Both the position numbers and the translations under genes were made by a program. Positions 3,347 to 10,691 of a DNA stretch of 64,000 bases are shown here, in pieces. Numbering within the stretch: the first letter of the stretch is position 1; each line of letters starts with the position of its first letter. The DNA is from Pelagicoccus sp. SDUM812003 (GTDB lineage: Bacteria > Verrucomicrobiota > Verrucomicrobiia > Opitutales > Opitutaceae): the NCBI RefSeq assembly GCF_031127815.1, contig NZ_JARXHY010000001.1:372001-436000 (forward strand), read 5' to 3'. The notes below the pieces were generated by a model that searched no databases, was not told where the DNA came from, and saw nothing but the letters and a program-made list of their open reading frames with translations.

Positions 3347-3963
3347 TTTCCCTCAAAAAGAAAACGGCCGATAAGGCCAGCTATCGCTGGCGCCCGAACT
3401 TTCGTGATTACGAGGCGTTGCCAGACGTGCAGACCGTGCGCACGAAAGTCTTCCTGCCGGTCATATTCATCACTATCGCGGCGGTCTTTTGCGTTTTCAT
3501 CCTTTTCCGGGAGTACGGCGCGATGAATACGGAAAAGAGCATCGCGAATCTGGAAAGCGAAATCGCTAGCTACCAGGCCGAGCACGACGTCATCGTTTCG
3601 CTCAATTCCGATTTCATGAAAATTGTTCGCGATCTCGATGAGATCGACGAGTTCATGTCCGGCAAGCTGGTTGGTAGCGCCTTTCTGATCTCCATCACAT
3701 CGCTCCTCCCGGAGGACATGTATTTGACGCGTATCGAATACGGTGAGTCCAAAGTTTCCATCGAAGGCAGTCTGAATGTGCCAGCGGAAGAAGCGTCGCG
3801 AATTGTGGATGCATTCATGAAGGCGCTTGAGGAGGCTGACGTCGCCCAGGGACTGCTAACGGAGTACAAGTTGACTTCGATGGAACGTGACAAGAGCGGC
3901 GAAAAGATCCGCTTCCGCATCGAAGTGCTTCCTCAAGAGGAAAAGAAAGGGAAGAAACGATGA
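3343..3963 (+). CDS. PilN-like inner-membrane assembly protein
   Basis: The 206-residue protein has a basic cytoplasmic N-terminus (about 35 residues), one membrane helix (VFLPVIFITIAAVFCVFILF, about 36-55), a coiled coil and a periplasmic ferredoxin-like domain containing SLLPEDMYLTRIEY, the usual PilN 'lP..v.L..i' signature. In type IV pili PilN links PilM in the cytoplasm to PilO in the periplasm. Translational coupling is evident: its ATG overlaps the PilM-like stop by four bases and its own stop overlaps the next ATG. A longer frame from 3163 is possible but lies inside the upstream gene. Confidence 0.75.
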   Translation: MISLKKKTADKASYRWRPNFRDYEALPDVQTVRTKVFLPVIFITIAAVFCVFILFREYGAMNTEKSIANLESEIASYQAEHDVIVSLNSDFMKIVRDLDEIDEFMSGKLVGSAFLISITSLLPEDMYLTRIEYGESKVSIEGSLNVPAEEASRIVDAFMKALEEADVAQGLLTEYKLTSMERDKSGEKIRFRIEVLPQEEKKGKKR

Positions 3964-4547
3964 GCTTGATGACTGTCTTAAAGTATTTGAAAAAGAACTA
4001 CGTGATCGCGATCAGCGGCGCGGTGGTCGTCCTTTGTTCGGTCGTGTTTTTCATCAGAGACGATCAAATACGCCGACGCTCTGCGGACTATGACGATCTG
4101 GACATCCGTAGGACTCGAATTTTGAAGAATATGAAGTACGGGGTCGGACTGAAAGATGACCTTGAGGAGGTCAAGTCGATGATGAAGGAGGCGGAGTCTC
4201 GGCTCTTTCTACCGGATGACCTAGCGGGCAATCAACGCTACTTCTATCAAATCGAGCGGGCCTCCGGAGTGACTATTTCCAACCTTCAGCAAATCATAAA
4301 GCCGATCCCGACGGGCAAGAATAGCAAGCAGGAGCGCAAGAAAGCCATGAAGGCGACATTCAAGCCTATCCTGTATGATATGAGCGTGACGGGCACCTAC
4401 ATGGATGTGCTCGGGTTTCTGAGGGAAATCGAAGGAGGAAGAGCCTTCGCTACGATTGACTCATTCGCGATGTCCGGCGGCAAAGGCGAAGCGGACTCCT
4501 CTGTGACAATGCGACTAACGGTAGAGGTTCTCGGGAGGAAAATATAA
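3960..4547 (+). CDS. PilO-like inner-membrane assembly protein
   Basis: This 195-residue protein has a short basic N-terminus, one membrane helix (YVIAISGAVVVLCSVVFFI, about 13-31), a coiled-coil stretch and a C-terminal domain with the strand 'MSVTGTYMDVLGFLREIEGG', closely matching the PilO pattern (G.y..l..FL..le...r). PilN-PilO heterodimers form the alignment complex beneath the secretin. It overlaps PilN-like by ATGA and the next gene by TAATG. Confidence 0.78.
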   Translation: MSLMTVLKYLKKNYVIAISGAVVVLCSVVFFIRDDQIRRRSADYDDLDIRRTRILKNMKYGVGLKDDLEEVKSMMKEAESRLFLPDDLAGNQRYFYQIERASGVTISNLQQIIKPIPTGKNSKQERKKAMKATFKPILYDMSVTGTYMDVLGFLREIEGGRAFATIDSFAMSGGKGEADSSVTMRLTVEVLGRKI

Positions 4548-5017
4548 TGAAACGTATTTCTAGAAATATATCGGTCGTTTGTTTCTTGGCGCTTTTTAGC
4601 GGTTCTCTACATGGTCAGATCCTATCGATCGAATCGCGTCAGGAAAAGTTGGATACGATGAAAGCTCTATTGGGGAAAACGGTTGTTCCTGTCGAAGCTG
4701 ATGCGCTTGGCTATGCGGTGAATCCGTTCAATTCTGAGCAGACGGGTCTTGTTGAGGAGGAAGTCGAAGCTGAGGTGGCGGTTGACTTGTCCGACAAAGA
4801 TCTGCTTCAGGCTCTGTCTCAATATATTAATCCAACCGGAATTTTTCTTTTTGGAGGCGAGTTCTATCTCATCTTCAAGGAGCGAAAAATGAATGTAGGG
4901 ACCAGATTCAATGTCCTGTATAAAGGGAATCAATACGCTGTGACGGTGACGGAGATAAATAGCTCCAGCTATTCCGTCCGTTACGGAGAAGCGGAATTAC
5001 AACTCAAACTAAAGTAA
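4547..5017 (+). CDS. Exported PilP/GspC-like linker protein
   Basis: The 156-residue product starts with a signal peptide (MKRISRNISVVCFLALFSGSLHG) without a lipobox cysteine, so unlike classical PilP it is probably not a lipoprotein. The C-terminal half (FNVLYKGNQYAVTVTEINSSSY...) has the small beta-barrel look of the PilP/GspC homology region that contacts the secretin N0 domain. The call rests on position between the PilO-like gene and the secretin plus this shape; sequence similarity is low. Start overlaps the previous stop (TAATG) and the secretin ATG follows immediately after its stop. Confidence 0.55.
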   Translation: MKRISRNISVVCFLALFSGSLHGQILSIESRQEKLDTMKALLGKTVVPVEADALGYAVNPFNSEQTGLVEEEVEAEVAVDLSDKDLLQALSQYINPTGIFLFGGEFYLIFKERKMNVGTRFNVLYKGNQYAVTVTEINSSSYSVRYGEAELQLKLK

Positions 5018-6739
5018 ATGCGTGATATGAAAAAGAATATGCAACTAGCATTGACGACGCTATTGTGCGTCGGTGGCCTGACTTATGCCATGGCCCAAGA
5101 GAGCGTCCCTGCCGAAAGGGTAGCGGATGGTATGGTAGAAGAACGACAAGCTCCTATCTCGGTTCCTTCGACAGCCCCAAGTCCGAGCGATATCGATCGG
5201 CTCTATGGTGATTTGACGGCGGACGAGATCGCGGAGCGCGAGCAGGCAGCTGCTCAAAACGAGAGCCTGAACGCTCTCGCGAATGAAGTGGCATCTCCTC
5301 TGGACCAGGGCATATCCCTGGATGCTACGGACCTAATCTCAGTTGACTACCCGAATGAGGAGATTCGGACCGTGTTGAGGAATGTAGCGGACCTGTATTC
5401 TCTCAATCTCGTAGTGCCGGATTCCCTACAGGGAACGACTTCTATAAAGCTGCGCGATGTCACTTGGCGGCAGATCTACTCGGTCGTTCTCGATCCGGTA
5501 GGTTTCACTTTTATCGAAGAGGGATCGATCATAAAGGTCGTGAGCAAGGACTCGTTGAACTTCGAGCCGCCAATCACGGAAATCTTCATGATCAACTATG
5601 CGGAAGCGGACCAGATCGCTAAGACGGTGGGCAACCTCGTGGAGGCTGACAAAGGAGGCCGCGTGCAGGTCGACAAGCGCAGCAACGCGTTGATCGTTTC
5701 CGAACGCTCATCCAAGATGGATGACATTCGCAGCGTCATCGAGCGTCTCGACCGTCCCACTCAGCAGGTCTTCATCGAGACTCGTTTTATCGAAGTCACC
5801 GACACGGATGTGAAGAACATCGGTGTCAACTGGGCGACGTTGCGAGAATATGGAGTCGGAGCCGGTCCTTTCACCCAAACCTACAATCGTCAGTCTTCGG
5901 GCGAGCGAGGAAAGGAATATGGCGACGAGTACAACACGGAGGAGGCCGACATCAGCAATCAGGCGGATGTTAAGTCGATTGGTACCACGCGAGGCATTTT
6001 CAGAGACAACCTGACTGGCGAAACCATTATGGACTCGACCGCGATCGGATCTCAGAGAAACGCCTCCGCTGCTTTCAACTCTTTGCGCAGCATCGCGAAC
6101 GGCAAGTCGACCTCCGCCGTTTTCAGCGCCGATCAGTTTGGCGTGGTCATCAGCGCCCTCAAGGAGCAAGGCGGCAGCCGTCTCGTATCCAATCCCACGG
6201 TTGTGACCCTCAACAACCAGGAAGCGAATATTTCAGTGGGCGATCGGTATCCAATACCTAACTACGCATACAACGAAGAGACTGGACGTTTCGAAGTCGA
6301 TGGCTTCGATTGGGAAGATATCGGAATCAATCTGAAGGTGACGCCATCCGTCAACCACACTGGGTTGATCACTCTGAAGGTTGTCCCGTCGGTGACGGAC
6401 CTAGCGGGGGTAGCGAACTTCGGCTCTGCTGAGATTCCCATTCTCTCGAACCGCAGCACTGTCACCCAGATCGCCCTCAAGGACGGTTTCACCATGGGCA
6501 TTGGTGGCCTGATGAAAAACGATAGCTCAGAGAACAAGAACAAGGTTCCGGTGCTCGGAAAGGTTCCGGGGCTCGGTCGCCTGTTCCGTCATGAGTCGAC
6601 TCGGGAAACCAAGCTCAATCTGCTCATCTTCATCACCGCCAAAATCCTGCCAAGCGAGGAAGCTGATTTCGAAGACGTTTTCTCACAGGAGATGATGATG
6701 AACACAGGTGTCGATCCGGTCTCTCTTAAGAACCGCTAG
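5018..6739 (+). CDS. Secretin (PilQ/GspD family outer-membrane channel)
   Basis: The 573-residue protein carries a signal peptide, an N0/STN domain (about residues 105-185, ...NVADLYSLNLVVPDSL...), one N1-type secretin_N repeat (RSNALIVSERSSKMDDIRSVIERLD, about 190-250), and the secretin channel domain (about 250-560). Hallmarks of the channel are VSNPTVVTLNNQEANISVG and the closing VPVLGKVPGLGRLFRH followed by LLIFITAKIL. It forms the multimeric outer-membrane pore of a type IV pilus or type II secretion machine. No AMIN domains are seen, so it is shorter than proteobacterial PilQ. Translation could start at 5018 or at the ATG at 5027. It ends the operon at a hairpin. Confidence 0.9.
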   Translation: MRDMKKNMQLALTTLLCVGGLTYAMAQESVPAERVADGMVEERQAPISVPSTAPSPSDIDRLYGDLTADEIAEREQAAAQNESLNALANEVASPLDQGISLDATDLISVDYPNEEIRTVLRNVADLYSLNLVVPDSLQGTTSIKLRDVTWRQIYSVVLDPVGFTFIEEGSIIKVVSKDSLNFEPPITEIFMINYAEADQIAKTVGNLVEADKGGRVQVDKRSNALIVSERSSKMDDIRSVIERLDRPTQQVFIETRFIEVTDTDVKNIGVNWATLREYGVGAGPFTQTYNRQSSGERGKEYGDEYNTEEADISNQADVKSIGTTRGIFRDNLTGETIMDSTAIGSQRNASAAFNSLRSIANGKSTSAVFSADQFGVVISALKEQGGSRLVSNPTVVTLNNQEANISVGDRYPIPNYAYNEETGRFEVDGFDWEDIGINLKVTPSVNHTGLITLKVVPSVTDLAGVANFGSAEIPILSNRSTVTQIALKDGFTMGIGGLMKNDSSENKNKVPVLGKVPGLGRLFRHESTRETKLNLLIFITAKILPSEEADFEDVFSQEMMMNTGVDPVSLKNR

Positions 6740-6811: not shown

Positions 6812-7228
6812 CTCGCCGACCACCGTGAGCACGATGGATCGCGAATGCGGCGCGGCGCGGTGTTCCCACAGGAAAACGCCTTGCCAGGTCCCGAGGCGCA
6901 AGGATCCGCTGGAGAATGGGATCGTCTCCGAGCTTCGAGTCAGGGCCATCTTGATGTGGGACGGCATGTCGTCCGGACCTTCGTAGGTGTGGGTGAAATG
7001 CGGATCGTTTTCCGGCACCAATCGGTTCAGGTAGTCTTCCAGGTCTCGACGGGCGGATGGGTCCGCGTTTTCCATCAGCACGAGACTGCAGCTGGTATGG
7101 CGGCAGAATACGGTTACCAAGCCTTCCTTGAATCCGCTCTCACGCACTGCGTTGCGCGCTTTGTCGGTGATTTCGAGCGTTCCTTGTCCGCTCGTGCGAA
7201 TGCTCACTTCTGAATGATAGACGCCCAT
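6809..7228 (-). CDS. yjbQ: YjbQ family (UPF0047) secondary thiamine-phosphate synthase-type protein
   Basis: The 139-residue protein contains the family signature: TVFCRHTSCSLVLMENADPS, then a DL-rich helix, then THTYEGPDDMPSHIKMAL, LTRSSETIPFSSGSLRLGTW and QGVFLWEHR. The conserved His residues coordinate a metal in solved structures. The E. coli member has a weak thiamine-phosphate synthase activity, and the true role of the family is unsettled. The ATG at 7228 (MGVYHSEV) is chosen because family members begin there; an extension to 7264 adds 12 unrelated residues. It is convergent with the secretin operon. Confidence 0.93.
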   Translation of the reverse strand: MGVYHSEVSIRTSGQGTLEITDKARNAVRESGFKEGLVTVFCRHTSCSLVLMENADPSARRDLEDYLNRLVPENDPHFTHTYEGPDDMPSHIKMALTRSSETIPFSSGSLRLGTWQGVFLWEHRAAPHSRSIVLTVVGE

Positions 7229-7291
7229 AGGCTTTGTACATGCGCGGATGGGCGAGCGGTTCAACGCTGAACTGGTTTTTGGGAGCAGCGC

Positions 7292-8296
7292 CTAGTCGCC
7301 AGGCGCCAGTATCGCCAGCTCGATTTCCTCGTCGCCTCGTAGAACAGTCACCTGCAGAAAGGCATCCCGTTCGCTGAAGAAAAGCAGGTCGCTTAGCTGA
7401 TTGAGTGAGCTGATTTCCTCGCCGTTGATTCGCAAGATGGTGTCACCCTTTCTCAGTCCGCTGTTTTTCGCTAGCCCGTTGTTGTGTAGGTTTTGAACCA
7501 CTACGCTTTTTCGAGCTTCGTTTGAGTAGCTGATCTCCGACTCCAGCAGATCGGCTCCGAGCTCTAGATGTGGGAAGGCCCGACCTTGGCGGAGGTAGTC
7601 GGCGACTCGTTTCAAGGCTGCTGTCGGTACGATGTAGCTCGAAGAAACTTCGGGCAGCGTTGCGACGCTGATACCGATTAGCCGTCCTCGTTTGTCGAAT
7701 ACAGGCGAGCCTCCTTCAGCGGGACCCGATGGGATGCTGACTCGCGTGTAGGCGAACGGAAAGCGGATGTCGGAAAACTTGCTTTCTCTGCCGCTCACGA
7801 GTCCCCATTTGGGAGTGGGCTCGAATTCGAGAGGGCACGTGATGGCGATGGCGAGCGAGCCGATGGGCGTCGCGTCCGGCGTGGTCTCCAAGGGGATGTG
7901 TGTAAGCGTTTCCGGAGGTTTGGCGAGCTGCAGCAGGCTCAGGTTGCAGGTGGTGTCGGTGCCAACGAGTACGGCTAGGTATTGCTTTCCGCCTTTTTCG
8001 ATCCAGATGCGGGAATTGTCGGTCGAAGGCAGCGCGTTGGTGAGAACGTGGCCGTTCGGATCGATGAAGAAGCCAGATAGCACGGTGAGCGCCGTGCTGT
8101 CGGCTCCGGAAGCGTCCTTGGTTCGAGTCGCGACCTTCACTCGCGCGACCGCGTCGCGGTTTTTCTGATACAGATCGATGAGTTGCGATTCGATTTCGTC
8201 GATCGCCCTGGCTCTGCCTTGCGCTTGGAAGCCGATTCCTACCGCCACGCACGTCGAGAGGAACGCGATAAAGCTTGCCCTTGCCAAGGGGTTCAT
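7292..8296 (-). CDS. HtrA/DegP-like protein with PDZ domain, catalytic triad lost
   Basis: A signal peptide (about 1-30) precedes a trypsin-like S1C domain (about 45-240) and a C-terminal PDZ domain (about 245-334, ...AKNSGLRKGDTILRINGEEISSLNQLSDLL). The catalytic positions are all changed: the His site reads GHVLTNALPS instead of TNxHVV, the Asp site reads CNLSLLQL instead of xDLAVLKI, and the serine site reads PAEGGSPVF instead of GNSGGPL. It is therefore probably a peptide-binding pseudoprotease in the periplasm. It sits 3 bases after an anti-sigma gene, which itself follows an ECF sigma gene, so a role in sensing envelope stress is a reasonable inference. Confidence 0.85.
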   Translation of the reverse strand: MNPLARASFIAFLSTCVAVGIGFQAQGRARAIDEIESQLIDLYQKNRDAVARVKVATRTKDASGADSTALTVLSGFFIDPNGHVLTNALPSTDNSRIWIEKGGKQYLAVLVGTDTTCNLSLLQLAKPPETLTHIPLETTPDATPIGSLAIAITCPLEFEPTPKWGLVSGRESKFSDIRFPFAYTRVSIPSGPAEGGSPVFDKRGRLIGISVATLPEVSSSYIVPTAALKRVADYLRQGRAFPHLELGADLLESEISYSNEARKSVVVQNLHNNGLAKNSGLRKGDTILRINGEEISSLNQLSDLLFFSERDAFLQVTVLRGDEEIELAILAPGD

Positions 8297-8299
8297 TGC

Positions 8300-8896
8300 C
8301 TAGAACTGTTTCTGAGCGCGAATGACTTTTGCCCCGAGTGGAGCGTGCAGATCGGGGCGCTCGGCGGTTTCGTCGTAGCCGCTCGAGAAGGTGACGGGCA
8401 TTGCGTTTAGGCGATAGGCTTCAGCCTGCGGCAACGGGTTCTGCATCACGTTCATTTGGTAGACGGGATGCGTTTCGAACTCCAGAGGCTGATGGAAGGC
8501 GGGAGCGAGGGGGTCGTTCGGCGTGGTTTCCGAGCCGACGACGAACTGGGGCTTGTTCGGAGTCTTCGGGTCGTCGTGAAGCTTTGTTTCGCTCGGGTCC
8601 TCGCGGTCGTCTTGAACGAGGAAGCTGGTATTGGTCAGGGCGACTAGGGAGAGGGCGATGGCGCCGAGCGCGGTCGTTGGCGGAGCGGCTCTGCGGGCGG
8701 CGACGAGGGCCAGTCGGTAGAGCCGCGTGCGCCAGGGCTGCACGCGGACCAACGAGGAGAGCTGCTTGCTGCGAAACTCCTGCTCGAAGCGTTGCCAAAA
8801 TGCGGCGTCAGGGCGCTCCAGCTTCTTGAGCTGGATCAGTTGGCTGAGTCGAGCGTCCGTTTCAGCGGTTAGTCTGTGTTGCGGGTGGATGGGCAT
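8300..8896 (-). CDS. Putative membrane anti-sigma factor
   Basis: This 198-residue protein has a cytoplasmic N-terminal helical part (about 1-70, with a typical 'LSQLIQLKKLERPDAAFWQRFEQEF' type opening), one hydrophobic segment (about 73-93, PPTTALGAIALSLVALTNTSF) and a Pro-rich exterior tail of about 100 residues. There is no recognisable zinc-binding HxxxCxxC anti-sigma motif. It is called an anti-sigma factor because it starts 5 bases after the stop of an ECF sigma factor and is followed at once by the HtrA-like gene, an order reminiscent of rpoE-rseA-mucD. Confidence 0.65.
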   Translation of the reverse strand: MPIHPQHRLTAETDARLSQLIQLKKLERPDAAFWQRFEQEFRSKQLSSLVRVQPWRTRLYRLALVAARRAAPPTTALGAIALSLVALTNTSFLVQDDREDPSETKLHDDPKTPNKPQFVVGSETTPNDPLAPAFHQPLEFETHPVYQMNVMQNPLPQAEAYRLNAMPVTFSSGYDETAERPDLHAPLGAKVIRAQKQF

Positions 8897-8901
8897 TCAG
8901 G

Positions 8902-9531
8902 CTAGCGCACGTAGTCCTTGAGTTCGGCTTGAAGAAATTGCTTGGCGTAGTGGAGGCGGGAACGGACCGTGCCGACCGAGGTGCCGACGATCTCGGCGAT
9001 CTCCTTGTGGCTCAATCCGTCGATTTCGTAGAGCGTGATCACGGTTCGGTGCTTCACGGAGAGCTTTTGGAAGGCGTCGTTGAGCTTCTCCTGCAGTTCG
9101 TTCATCAAGGCGCTCTTGTCGGAGTCCGAGTCGGTCTTGAGCTGATCGATGAAGCCGGCCGAGTGGTCTTCCTCGCTCATCTTCTCGAAGCTGAAGAAAC
9201 GTCTGAGCTTGTGCTTGCGAAGGTGGGTGAGGGTGGTGTTGAGGGCGATGCGGTAGAGCCAGGTGAAGAAGCTGGACTTGCCCTTGAAGCGTCCGACGGA
9301 TTGGAAGGCCTTGATAAAGGTGTCCTGAGCGAGGTCGGAGGCGTCTTCCCGGTTGGAGGTCAAGTTGTAGATAACCGCGTATATCCGCTCCCGGTATTTG
9401 ACGATGAGGTCGTCGAACGCGTCCACGTCCCCGGCCTGTACTTTCTGTACGATGGCGAGGTCTTCGTCGGCCTCTTTCTGCCTTTCGGGCGAAGAAACCA
9501 AGGTCTTGGACATGGCCTTGCTGACGCTCAT
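8902..9531 (-). CDS. ECF-type RNA polymerase sigma factor (RpoE-like)
   Basis: The 209-residue protein has sigma region 2 (about 35-105: FDDLIVKYRERIYAVIYNL, EDASDLAQDTFIKAFQ, and FFTWLYRIALN) and region 4 (about 145-200: LSVKHRTVITLYEIDGLSHK, EIAEIVGTSVGTVRSRLHYA). It lacks regions 1 and 3 as expected for group IV. It heads a three-gene unit with the anti-sigma and HtrA-like genes. An alternative ATG at 9513 would drop six residues. Confidence 0.95.
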   Translation of the reverse strand: MSVSKAMSKTLVSSPERQKEADEDLAIVQKVQAGDVDAFDDLIVKYRERIYAVIYNLTSNREDASDLAQDTFIKAFQSVGRFKGKSSFFTWLYRIALNTTLTHLRKHKLRRFFSFEKMSEEDHSAGFIDQLKTDSDSDKSALMNELQEKLNDAFQKLSVKHRTVITLYEIDGLSHKEIAEIVGTSVGTVRSRLHYAKQFLQAELKDYVR

Positions 9532-9629
9532 CTAGGGTTGCAGTTTGATCGGTAAAAAGTGCTAGCGGAAAACCGGGAAAATGAGAAGCAGGAACTTGGC
9601 CACTTTCGCATCTGGCCCCTCGCGGTCGA

Positions 9630-10691
9630 CTACAGGGCGGCGACTTGGTTCCAGAGCAACTGGCTGATGGTGTGCAAGTAGTTGGCGGCGGTTTGGTTCT
9701 GGTAGGGAGCGACGGCGTCGCGGGCCTTTTCGATTTCCTGAAAAATCGCCTGACGGACTTCTTCGAAGATGCCCATTTGGCGCAGCTTTTCCAGCCAGTA
9801 GGGAATATCTGCCTCCCGTTTGCCCGATAGGGTGTCTCGAAGGGCCCGAGCTTCTTCGGCCGGTAGTCGGTCGCGCATGAGGATCAGTGGCATGGTCGGT
9901 TTGCCGGTAGCGATGTCGGTGCCGAGCGTTTTGCCGATCTTTTCCTGCGAGCCGAACAGGTCGGTCATGTCGTCGTAAATCTGGTAGGCGATGCCCAGAT
10001 GTCGGCCGAAGGCGCCGCTGGCGCGCACGTAGGCGTCGCTGTAGCCTCCTAGGCGAGCCCCTAGGAAGCAGGCCACGCGAAAGAGTTCGGCCGTCTTCAG
10101 GTCGATGACGCGAAGGTAGGTGGCCATGTCGAGGTCCGGATCGCCTCGCTGCATGGTTTGCAGGATTTCTCCGGTGCACACCTTGCGGGTGGATTCGGCG
10201 ACGTTGCGGCAGACCTCGTTGGTCGGAAAGAGGGTGGCGAGGTAGACGGCGTGCGAGAAGAGGGCGTCGCCCAGCAGCACGGCGGTGGCGTTGTTGTACT
10301 TGCGGGCCACGGTGGCTCGATTGCGGCGGATGTCCGCTTCGTCCATGATGTCGTCGTGCACGAGGGTGGCCAGGTGTACGGTCTCCACGACTGCGGCGAG
10401 CCGTACCAGATTTTCGTCGACCTGGCCGTCGGCCTGCCAGCCGCTGAAGAAGATGAGGGACGGGCGGATGCGTTTCCCTCCGGTATCGATGCTGTATTCC
10501 GCGTGCTCGCGAATCTCTGGCTCGAATTGGGAAACTTGCTCCAGCAGGAAGCTGTCCAGGGCCTTTAGGTGCGGCTGCAGGATCTCGAACAGCTCGGGGA
10601 GCTGCTTGGCTGTCGAGGCGCTTGGCGTTTCGGGCGGGTTTTGCATCTTCTTAGGGAGAAAGCGTCTATGCATCGCAGAACACGCTTCCAT
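9630..10691 (-). CDS. Polyprenyl diphosphate synthase (IspB-type trans-isoprenyl synthase)
   Basis: Up to 353 residues. Both aspartate-rich motifs are present: LVHDDIMDEADIRR (FARM) and YQIYDDMTDLFGSQEKIGKT (SARM), plus GGKRIRPSL for diphosphate binding and the LLGDALFSHA helix. Such enzymes extend FPP with IPP to long all-trans chains for quinone tails. The residues ahead of the FARM motif are small, fitting a long-chain product, though length cannot be deduced. Start is uncertain: 10691 has a weak AGG six bases upstream, while ATGs at 10673 and 10646 remove non-conserved residues. Confidence 0.93.
   Translation of the reverse strand: MEACSAMHRRFLPKKMQNPPETPSASTAKQLPELFEILQPHLKALDSFLLEQVSQFEPEIREHAEYSIDTGGKRIRPSLIFFSGWQADGQVDENLVRLAAVVETVHLATLVHDDIMDEADIRRNRATVARKYNNATAVLLGDALFSHAVYLATLFPTNEVCRNVAESTRKVCTGEILQTMQRGDPDLDMATYLRVIDLKTAELFRVACFLGARLGGYSDAYVRASGAFGRHLGIAYQIYDDMTDLFGSQEKIGKTLGTDIATGKPTMPLILMRDRLPAEEARALRDTLSGKREADIPYWLEKLRQMGIFEEVRQAIFQEIEKARDAVAPYQNQTAANYLHTISQLLWNQVAAL

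Follow-up and report, generated by a model that had tools for sequence, protein, structure and literature searches.

In the textbook route, envelope stress is signaled inward by regulated cleavage of anti-sigma factors; MucD, an HtrA-type protein, has protease activity, and RseB and MucB have a fold unrelated to that of HtrA. In Xanthomonas and Stenotrophomonas, a sigma factor, an anti-sigma factor and an HtrA-type protein are encoded in one operon, rpoE-rseA-mucD, according to the accessible part of PMC4229105, and MucD itself is named an HtrA-type serine endoprotease in the Protein Data Bank (PDB) listing. Excerpts of PMC8545111 name MucB and RseB as protectors of MucA and RseA. Here we describe a gene trio in a 64,000-nucleotide stretch (the window) of Pelagicoccus sp. 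SDUM812003 (Verrucomicrobiota; contig NZ_JARXHY010000001.1, positions 372,001 to 436,000), which encodes an extracytoplasmic function (ECF) sigma factor (SIG), a putative membrane-bound anti-sigma factor (MID) and an HtrA-type protein without catalytic triad (HTRA), hereafter termed a pseudo-HtrA. The module is very probably an envelope-stress sigma/anti-sigma pair combined with a catalytically dead HtrA. Its gene order is known from rpoE-rseA-mucD; the new element is a near-constant aromatic C-terminus on the putative anti-sigma factor.

As the earlier note on this DNA had recognized, the trio has the same gene order as rpoE-rseA-mucD (PMC4229105, in part), and this order is kept in relatives, where 46 trios show short gaps (medians of 9.5 nt between SIG and MID and 9 nt between MID and HTRA, with predicted starts). 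The window trio differs from that operon in the loss of the triad in HTRA and in a MID that matches no RseA model. With DegS and AlgW, HTRA shares the fold (VIA Z 24-27) and, putatively, the class of PDZ domain that, in the excerpts of PMC8545111, binds C-terminal aromatic peptides; those proteases, however, cut the anti-sigma factor, whereas the pseudo-HtrA is without catalytic residues. Moreover, the aromatic end resides on outer-membrane proteins or on MucE in the case of DegS and AlgW (same excerpts), but on the anti-sigma factor here. Like RseB and MucB, the pseudo-HtrA may shield the anti-sigma factor in the periplasm by non-enzymatic means, except that the shield would here be a dead HtrA. 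MamO, as presented in the available portion of PMC4794232, is likewise an HtrA-derived protein that acts without catalysis; it binds metal, has a transporter domain and, in that portion, is assigned no sigma or anti-sigma partner, and its NCBIfam model matches HTRA only weakly (6.3e-07, far below the cut-off). Among the matches listed in our literature searches, with subscription papers outside their scope, no title describes the trio, and none has envelope stress signaling in Verrucomicrobiota as its subject.

Organization of the trio

The three genes lie on the minus strand, SIG at 9531-8902, MID at 8896-8300 and HTRA at 8296-7292 (exact coordinates), separated by gaps of only 5 nt (SIG/MID) and 3 nt (MID/HTRA). 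A scan of positions 7000-9900 found no terminator-like site on the minus strand and no sigma-70-type promoter, the latter scan covering the sigma-70 type only.

SIG (209 aa; 8902..9531, minus strand) is an RpoE-like ECF sigma factor, in which Pfam matches sigma-70 region 2 (Sigma70_r2, 5.3e-18) and region 4 (Sigma70_r4_2, 2.1e-15) while region 3 is unmatched, the layout of the ECF group. The NCBIfam superfamily model sigma70-ECF is matched at 124.2 bits, above its cut-off of 42.9; the best model, RpoE (TIGR02939), scores 150.8 bits, below the 236.15 required for an RpoE equivalog. Searches at E≤1e-40 gave a single SIG match per genome in 103 of 115 genomes, that of the window included. The closest named records by sigma factor are those of strain DG1235 and Pelagicoccus sp. 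SDUM812002 (89% each).

Loss of the catalytic triad and rebuilding of the old active site

HTRA (334 aa; 7292..8296, minus strand) is composed of an N-terminal signal or anchor, a trypsin-like domain and one PDZ domain, as indicated by Pfam (Trypsin_2, 1.4e-13, plus PDZ) and by its AlphaFold2 (AF2) model. Its active site was compared in the following sets: (i) 87 pseudo-HtrAs, 84 of which lie directly behind SIG and MID, while L069, L070 and L215 (one of them unlinked, the other two at loci that lack SIG) were added by similarity; (ii) 41 other HtrAs, i.e., the remaining HtrA loci fetched from the window's genome and its relatives, a subset of the HtrAs of those genomes; (iii) a second set of 31 trio HtrAs from named genomes, which a scan with the sigma factor had picked out and which partially overlaps the first. 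Open reading frames (ORFs) in these counts, and in those of the MID tails below, were taken from stop to stop, such that N-termini may be overlong and lengths are ORF lengths.

In the alignment to the 41 other HtrAs, Leu89 (8030..8032), Asn118 (7943..7945) and Gly195 (7712..7714, all on the minus strand) occupy the columns of the catalytic His, Asp and Ser, respectively, in agreement with the earlier note, which had claimed the loss of all three. That note had cited the motif GGSPVF for the Ser; the column is indeed lost, and the Ser within the motif lies two residues further on, where each of the 41 other HtrAs has Gly. The substitutions extend to the relatives. The His is present in 41/41 of the other HtrAs and in 0/87 of the trio kind. 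The Asp column, which contains Asp (39/41) or Glu (2/41) in the others, retains Asp in a single pseudo-HtrA, having lost it in 86 of 87, and is most often Asn (57/87). In the Ser column, Ser is invariant among the others (41/41), compared to 10/87 pseudo-HtrAs, with Gly in 46. None of the three residues is left in 76 of the 87, and not one of the 87 retains two of them. In the second set His and Asp are lost in 31/31, and Ser is retained in three. Homologs that keep the triad were thus looked for and not found among the 87 pseudo-HtrAs and the 31 named trios. The 87 proteins span 34 family codes, one of these outside the class; by sequence, the loss is a property of one old clade and not a single-genome defect.

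New residues occupy the site. Arg185 (7742..7744, minus strand) replaces a Gln that is invariant in the others (41/41) and is itself found in 84/87 pseudo-HtrAs; at position 194 Asn has given way to Glu, Gln or Asp in 75/87, and Gly196 is present in 87/87. As these columns read, the old active site is rebuilt, with a fixed Arg185 and a mostly acidic partner at 194, and not randomly altered.

The earlier description of HTRA as an HtrA-like PDZ protein is supported by the AF2 model, which shows a whole HtrA fold with a mean predicted local distance difference test (pLDDT) score of 94.4 and a predicted template modeling score of 0.87. The nearest solved structures are DegP, DegQ, MucD and DegS, and VIA Z values to HtrA structures range from 24 to 29. 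HTRA remains below the curated cut-offs that NCBIfam sets for its Do, HhoA and DegS models (best score 99.7 bits vs. 416.2). In a tree built without the motif columns from 63 of the 87 pseudo-HtrAs and 30 of the 41 others, the two kinds fall on opposite sides of one branch (Shimodaira-Hasegawa-like approximate likelihood ratio test, 95). This split, the newly fixed residues and the whole predicted fold together indicate that the inactive state is ancient and under constraint. By these sequence and model data the pseudo-HtrA is being maintained and its gene is not decaying, at least if the window's own family is set aside. The window's genome codes for four further HtrA-type proteins, all with triad motifs; no relative emerged from a single-sequence scan of named genomes that used the pseudo-HtrA as query.

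In a number of loci (L145, L146, L152, L155, L158, L203, L207 and L212-L214) the trypsin-like domain has degenerated further in its motif regions. The degenerate L145 type forms one branch of the class (support 94), and its PDZ loop looks canonical in most sequences inspected.

The PDZ domain of HTRA comprises residues 260-330 (7307..7519, minus strand; PDZ_2, 4.3e-11). The carboxylate-binding loop of such domains is given, in the excerpts of PMC11642142, as R/K-XXX-G-hydrophobic-G-hydrophobic, and a looser form of this pattern fits 69/87 pseudo-HtrAs and 36/41 other HtrAs. The carboxylate loop before the PDZ domain is atypical in Pelagicoccus-type pseudo-HtrAs (window positions 7529-7570) and reads HLELGAD in the window's HTRA.

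MID, the putative anti-sigma factor

MID (198 aa; 8300..8896, minus strand) is most likely an anti-sigma factor, in view of its linkage to the sigma gene, two conserved N-terminal helices, a likely transmembrane segment, an unstructured tail and the matches of its distant homologs. Its AF2 model contains helices at residues 6-26, 31-49, 55-69 and 71-92, the remainder being without structure. The last of these helices coincides with a hydrophobic stretch and is predicted to span the membrane once (8621..8686, minus strand). Residues 93-198 (8303..8620, minus strand), modeled without secondary structure (block pLDDT 45-60), would then form a periplasmic tail, whose last residues are RAQKQF-COOH. 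The family alignment of 46 rows shows invariant K24, E27, P29, W34 and F37 and the consensus motif L-L-x-L-K-R-x-E-x-P-x-x-x-F-W. A SIG match is present in 61 of the 66 loci drawn by MID (42/46 in one draw and 19/20 in another). One distant homolog contains a zf-HC2 zinc finger over the Pfam cut-off; in another, an NCBIfam anti-sigma model gives a match of 2.9e-11 that falls short of the model's cut-off. The PDB sequence search with the MID profile returned only three matches (E 0.25-1), all unrelated proteins.

MID-like proteins occur in 242 of the 384 genomes of a class-wide draw (E≤0.001) and in 80 of the 288 genomes of a phylum-wide draw, for which a wider profile was used (E≤1e-5). The window's own genome contains a second MID-like gene (locus L125, G000:C17:401-1198), coding for 265 aa and ending in ALTVRF; a sigma gene is absent from the stretch read, which is close to a contig end, and the same orphan type appears in two relatives (L143 and L144).

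A near-constant aromatic C-terminus

The last residue of MID is Phe or Tyr (F/Y) in 78 of 84 trios of the first set, in all 31 of the named set and in 100 of 105 trios after merging; the window's MID ends in KQF. The merged set of loci omits L141, which contains a stretch of N, as well as L092 and L093, which lie at contig ends, and loci cut by a contig end; removal of identical tails reduced it from 192 to 182. In three of 80 named loci no MID was found. Such an end is rare in the neighboring proteins that served as controls, namely SIG (1/119), HTRA (0/84), polyprenyl synthetase (IspB, 0/60), KpsF (0/16), UPF0047 (YjbQ, 0/31) and the secretin (GspD, 1/20), or 2/330 for all controls together. 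Positions -2 to -25 of MID are each aromatic in at most 21% of the 84 trios, and the tail sequence diverges almost wholly while the terminal aromatic residue persists. On the sigma tree, 10 changes are required to account for the F/Y state at 182 loci.

By analogy, a free terminal F/Y is of the kind that DegS-like PDZ domains bind: the structure matches of HTRA include, by title, solved DegS complexes with YQF-type peptide ends, and the WVF end of MucE acts as the switch for AlgW (PMC8545111, in part). On this analogy the aromatic tail of MID is probably a PDZ ligand for some partner. A second tail motif (an aromatic residue, then P-x-T/S/V-aromatic) was found in 19/105 trio tails, compared to a mean of 0.4 in shuffles and 0/77 in the other loci, and is a lead only, its pattern having been picked after inspection and near relatives being partly counted.

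A proposed shield and its alternatives

An aromatic MID tail next to a dead HtrA with a docking domain suggests sensing via binding rather than cutting. Starting from the gene trio, the residue loss, the predicted fold and the MID ends, which the sequences and models establish, we infer binding, competition, shielding and a site-1 protease in the following manner. The N-terminal helices of MID would hold the sigma factor at the inner membrane, while its flexible tail of ~100 residues would reach into the periplasm and present the carboxylate of its C-terminal F/Y to the PDZ groove. The pseudo-HtrA would bind this tail without cutting it and shield MID, the job that RseB does for RseA. C-termini of the same appearance, exposed when outer-membrane proteins are unfolded, might compete for the groove, and displacement of the tail would leave MID open to an active site-1 protease and subsequently to RseP, leading to release of the sigma factor. 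RseP is present in the window's genome, over the model cut-off. We assign this explanation a probability of about 0.42, and the role of the pseudo-HtrA as partner of the aromatic tail and shield of MID is proposed tentatively. Somewhat more doubtful is its extension to a phylum-wide design, in which anti-sigma factors would end in a PDZ ligand like that of outer-membrane proteins, be held uncut by a dedicated dead HtrA and be signaled to by peptide competition. Retention of an HtrA whose chemistry was discarded across 34 families would mean that selection preserved recognition and not cleavage; the module is a candidate core sigma pathway for Verrucomicrobiota and points to how a pseudoprotease can be a sensor.

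Several observations weigh against the shield. MID matches no Pfam or NCBIfam family, RseA models included, and Foldseek found no structural match to its AF2 model. The PDZ loop pattern fails in the window and in all 7 same-genus loci, and in 18/87 pseudo-HtrAs overall; five of the 105 trio MIDs lack the F/Y end. The 84 of 119 non-identical SIG-MID pairs that carry HTRA directly behind provide no unbiased frequency, because similarity to HTRA served to draw about half of the loci. The F/Y end persists in 57/77 loci without HTRA behind MID, and therefore appears independent of the pseudo-HtrA as partner. These 57 include 46 long MIDs (ORF over 255 aa, ending in F) and 11 more, one of which (L138, in genome G106) carries an unlinked pseudo-HtrA. 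Co-evolution of HTRA presence with the F/Y end (100/105 vs. 57/77 in raw counts) is not claimed, as the sign test was not significant: there are only 4 supported independent pairs, and the average number of these in which the end differs is below 2. Together with the atypical loop, the persisting ends suggest that an active HtrA may be an additional, or even the main, reader of the tail. Accordingly, the aromatic end might be the signal for an active periplasmic PDZ protease (a Do/DegS-type HtrA, the PDZ of RseP or a C-terminal protease), and the pseudo-HtrA, in the gene place of MucD, an autoregulated chaperone without signaling role. We regard this as unlikely, though it draws on more than the 57 loci. 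Among 21 genomes chosen mainly for the lack of a linked pseudo-HtrA, one (G463) has a linked one and another (G106) the unlinked one; the remaining 19 show only triad-motif HtrAs among the 30 loci read (the stronger matches), two of which, from one genome, have Glu in the Asp column. In addition, DegP, DegQ and MucD rank near the top of the structure matches, and in Stenotrophomonas the corresponding gene place is that of MucD (PMC4229105, in part). A chaperone, however, leaves unexplained why the pseudo-HtrA lies directly behind MID across many families and why Arg185 and Glu194 are fixed; moreover, the F/Y end is missing as well from 20 of the loci without HTRA, albeit in an association that is not significant on the tree.

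In the adaptor reading, which takes up the suggestion of the earlier note, the pseudo-HtrA could promote release, if it bound stress peptides in its PDZ domain and then delivered MID to, or activated, an active HtrA. MamO offers a precedent, being required for proteolysis by its active partner MamE while its own triad is dispensable (PMC4794232, in part); active-looking HtrAs are encoded in the window's genome, and the F/Y C-terminus of the anti-sigma factor is circumstantially in line with a peptide-sensing adaptor. Yet the F/Y ends without a linked pseudo-HtrA and the atypical PDZ loop of the window's genus count against such an adaptor as well, an adaptor is one of several non-cutting roles, with an RseB-like shield fitting at least as well, and a dedicated active partner is not seen beside the window trio, a weak point given that the relatives were checked for seven reference genes only. 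We consider the adaptor quite improbable. Nor is it probable that the aromatic end is no PDZ ligand at all and instead stabilizes a self-packed end, a strand like those of outer-membrane proteins or a contact to another envelope protein. In its favor, 35 MIDs without HTRA are hydrophobic at positions -3 (80%) and -5 (71%), a pattern that suits the last strand of an outer-membrane protein as well as a PDZ ligand, and the atypical loop of the window's genus would fit too; against this, no simpler ligand pair is apparent than a PDZ protein and, next to it, an unstructured tail with a free F/Y at its end, and the loop pattern does fit 69/87. Finally, the pseudo-HtrA might still cut by means of a rebuilt or cryptic active site, in keeping with the 10 proteins that have Ser and the one that has Asp in the respective columns, but the absence of the His from all 87, none with two triad residues, renders this highly improbable.

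Distribution among relatives

Among named records, the trio is carried by, e.g., Pelagicoccus, strain DG1235, Haloferula rosea and Puniceicoccaceae. No HTRA match below 1e-25 was obtained for 39 of the 49 genera of the window's family, and the Pelagicoccus-type pseudo-HtrA is possibly on its way out in a family in which most genera are without the gene. Outside the class (L195-L202), 7 of the 8 loci read have no linked HTRA, and 6 of these 7 end in F/Y.

In loci of the window's family without pseudo-HtrA (L119-L137 and many of L267-L309) the MIDs are ~100 residues longer; the long MIDs of this family mostly have an end like that of outer-membrane proteins, e.g., VSIKF. Public metagenome-assembled genomes titled Akkermansia muciniphila carry such loci as well (L296, L297 and L326). 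L296 resembles the type of the window's family, and its species label may thus be wrong.

Neighboring genes

Upstream of the trio are a polyprenyl synthetase gene (Pfam) and a KpsF-like gene, the latter named from its translation. Downstream, a UPF0047 gene (Pfam) is followed by a type II secretion secretin, again named from its translation, which belongs to a group of type II secretion genes that adjoins the trio at window positions 3960-6739. This neighborhood of secretin, UPF0047, trio, polyprenyl synthetase and KpsF is preserved across much of the genus and in some of the family.

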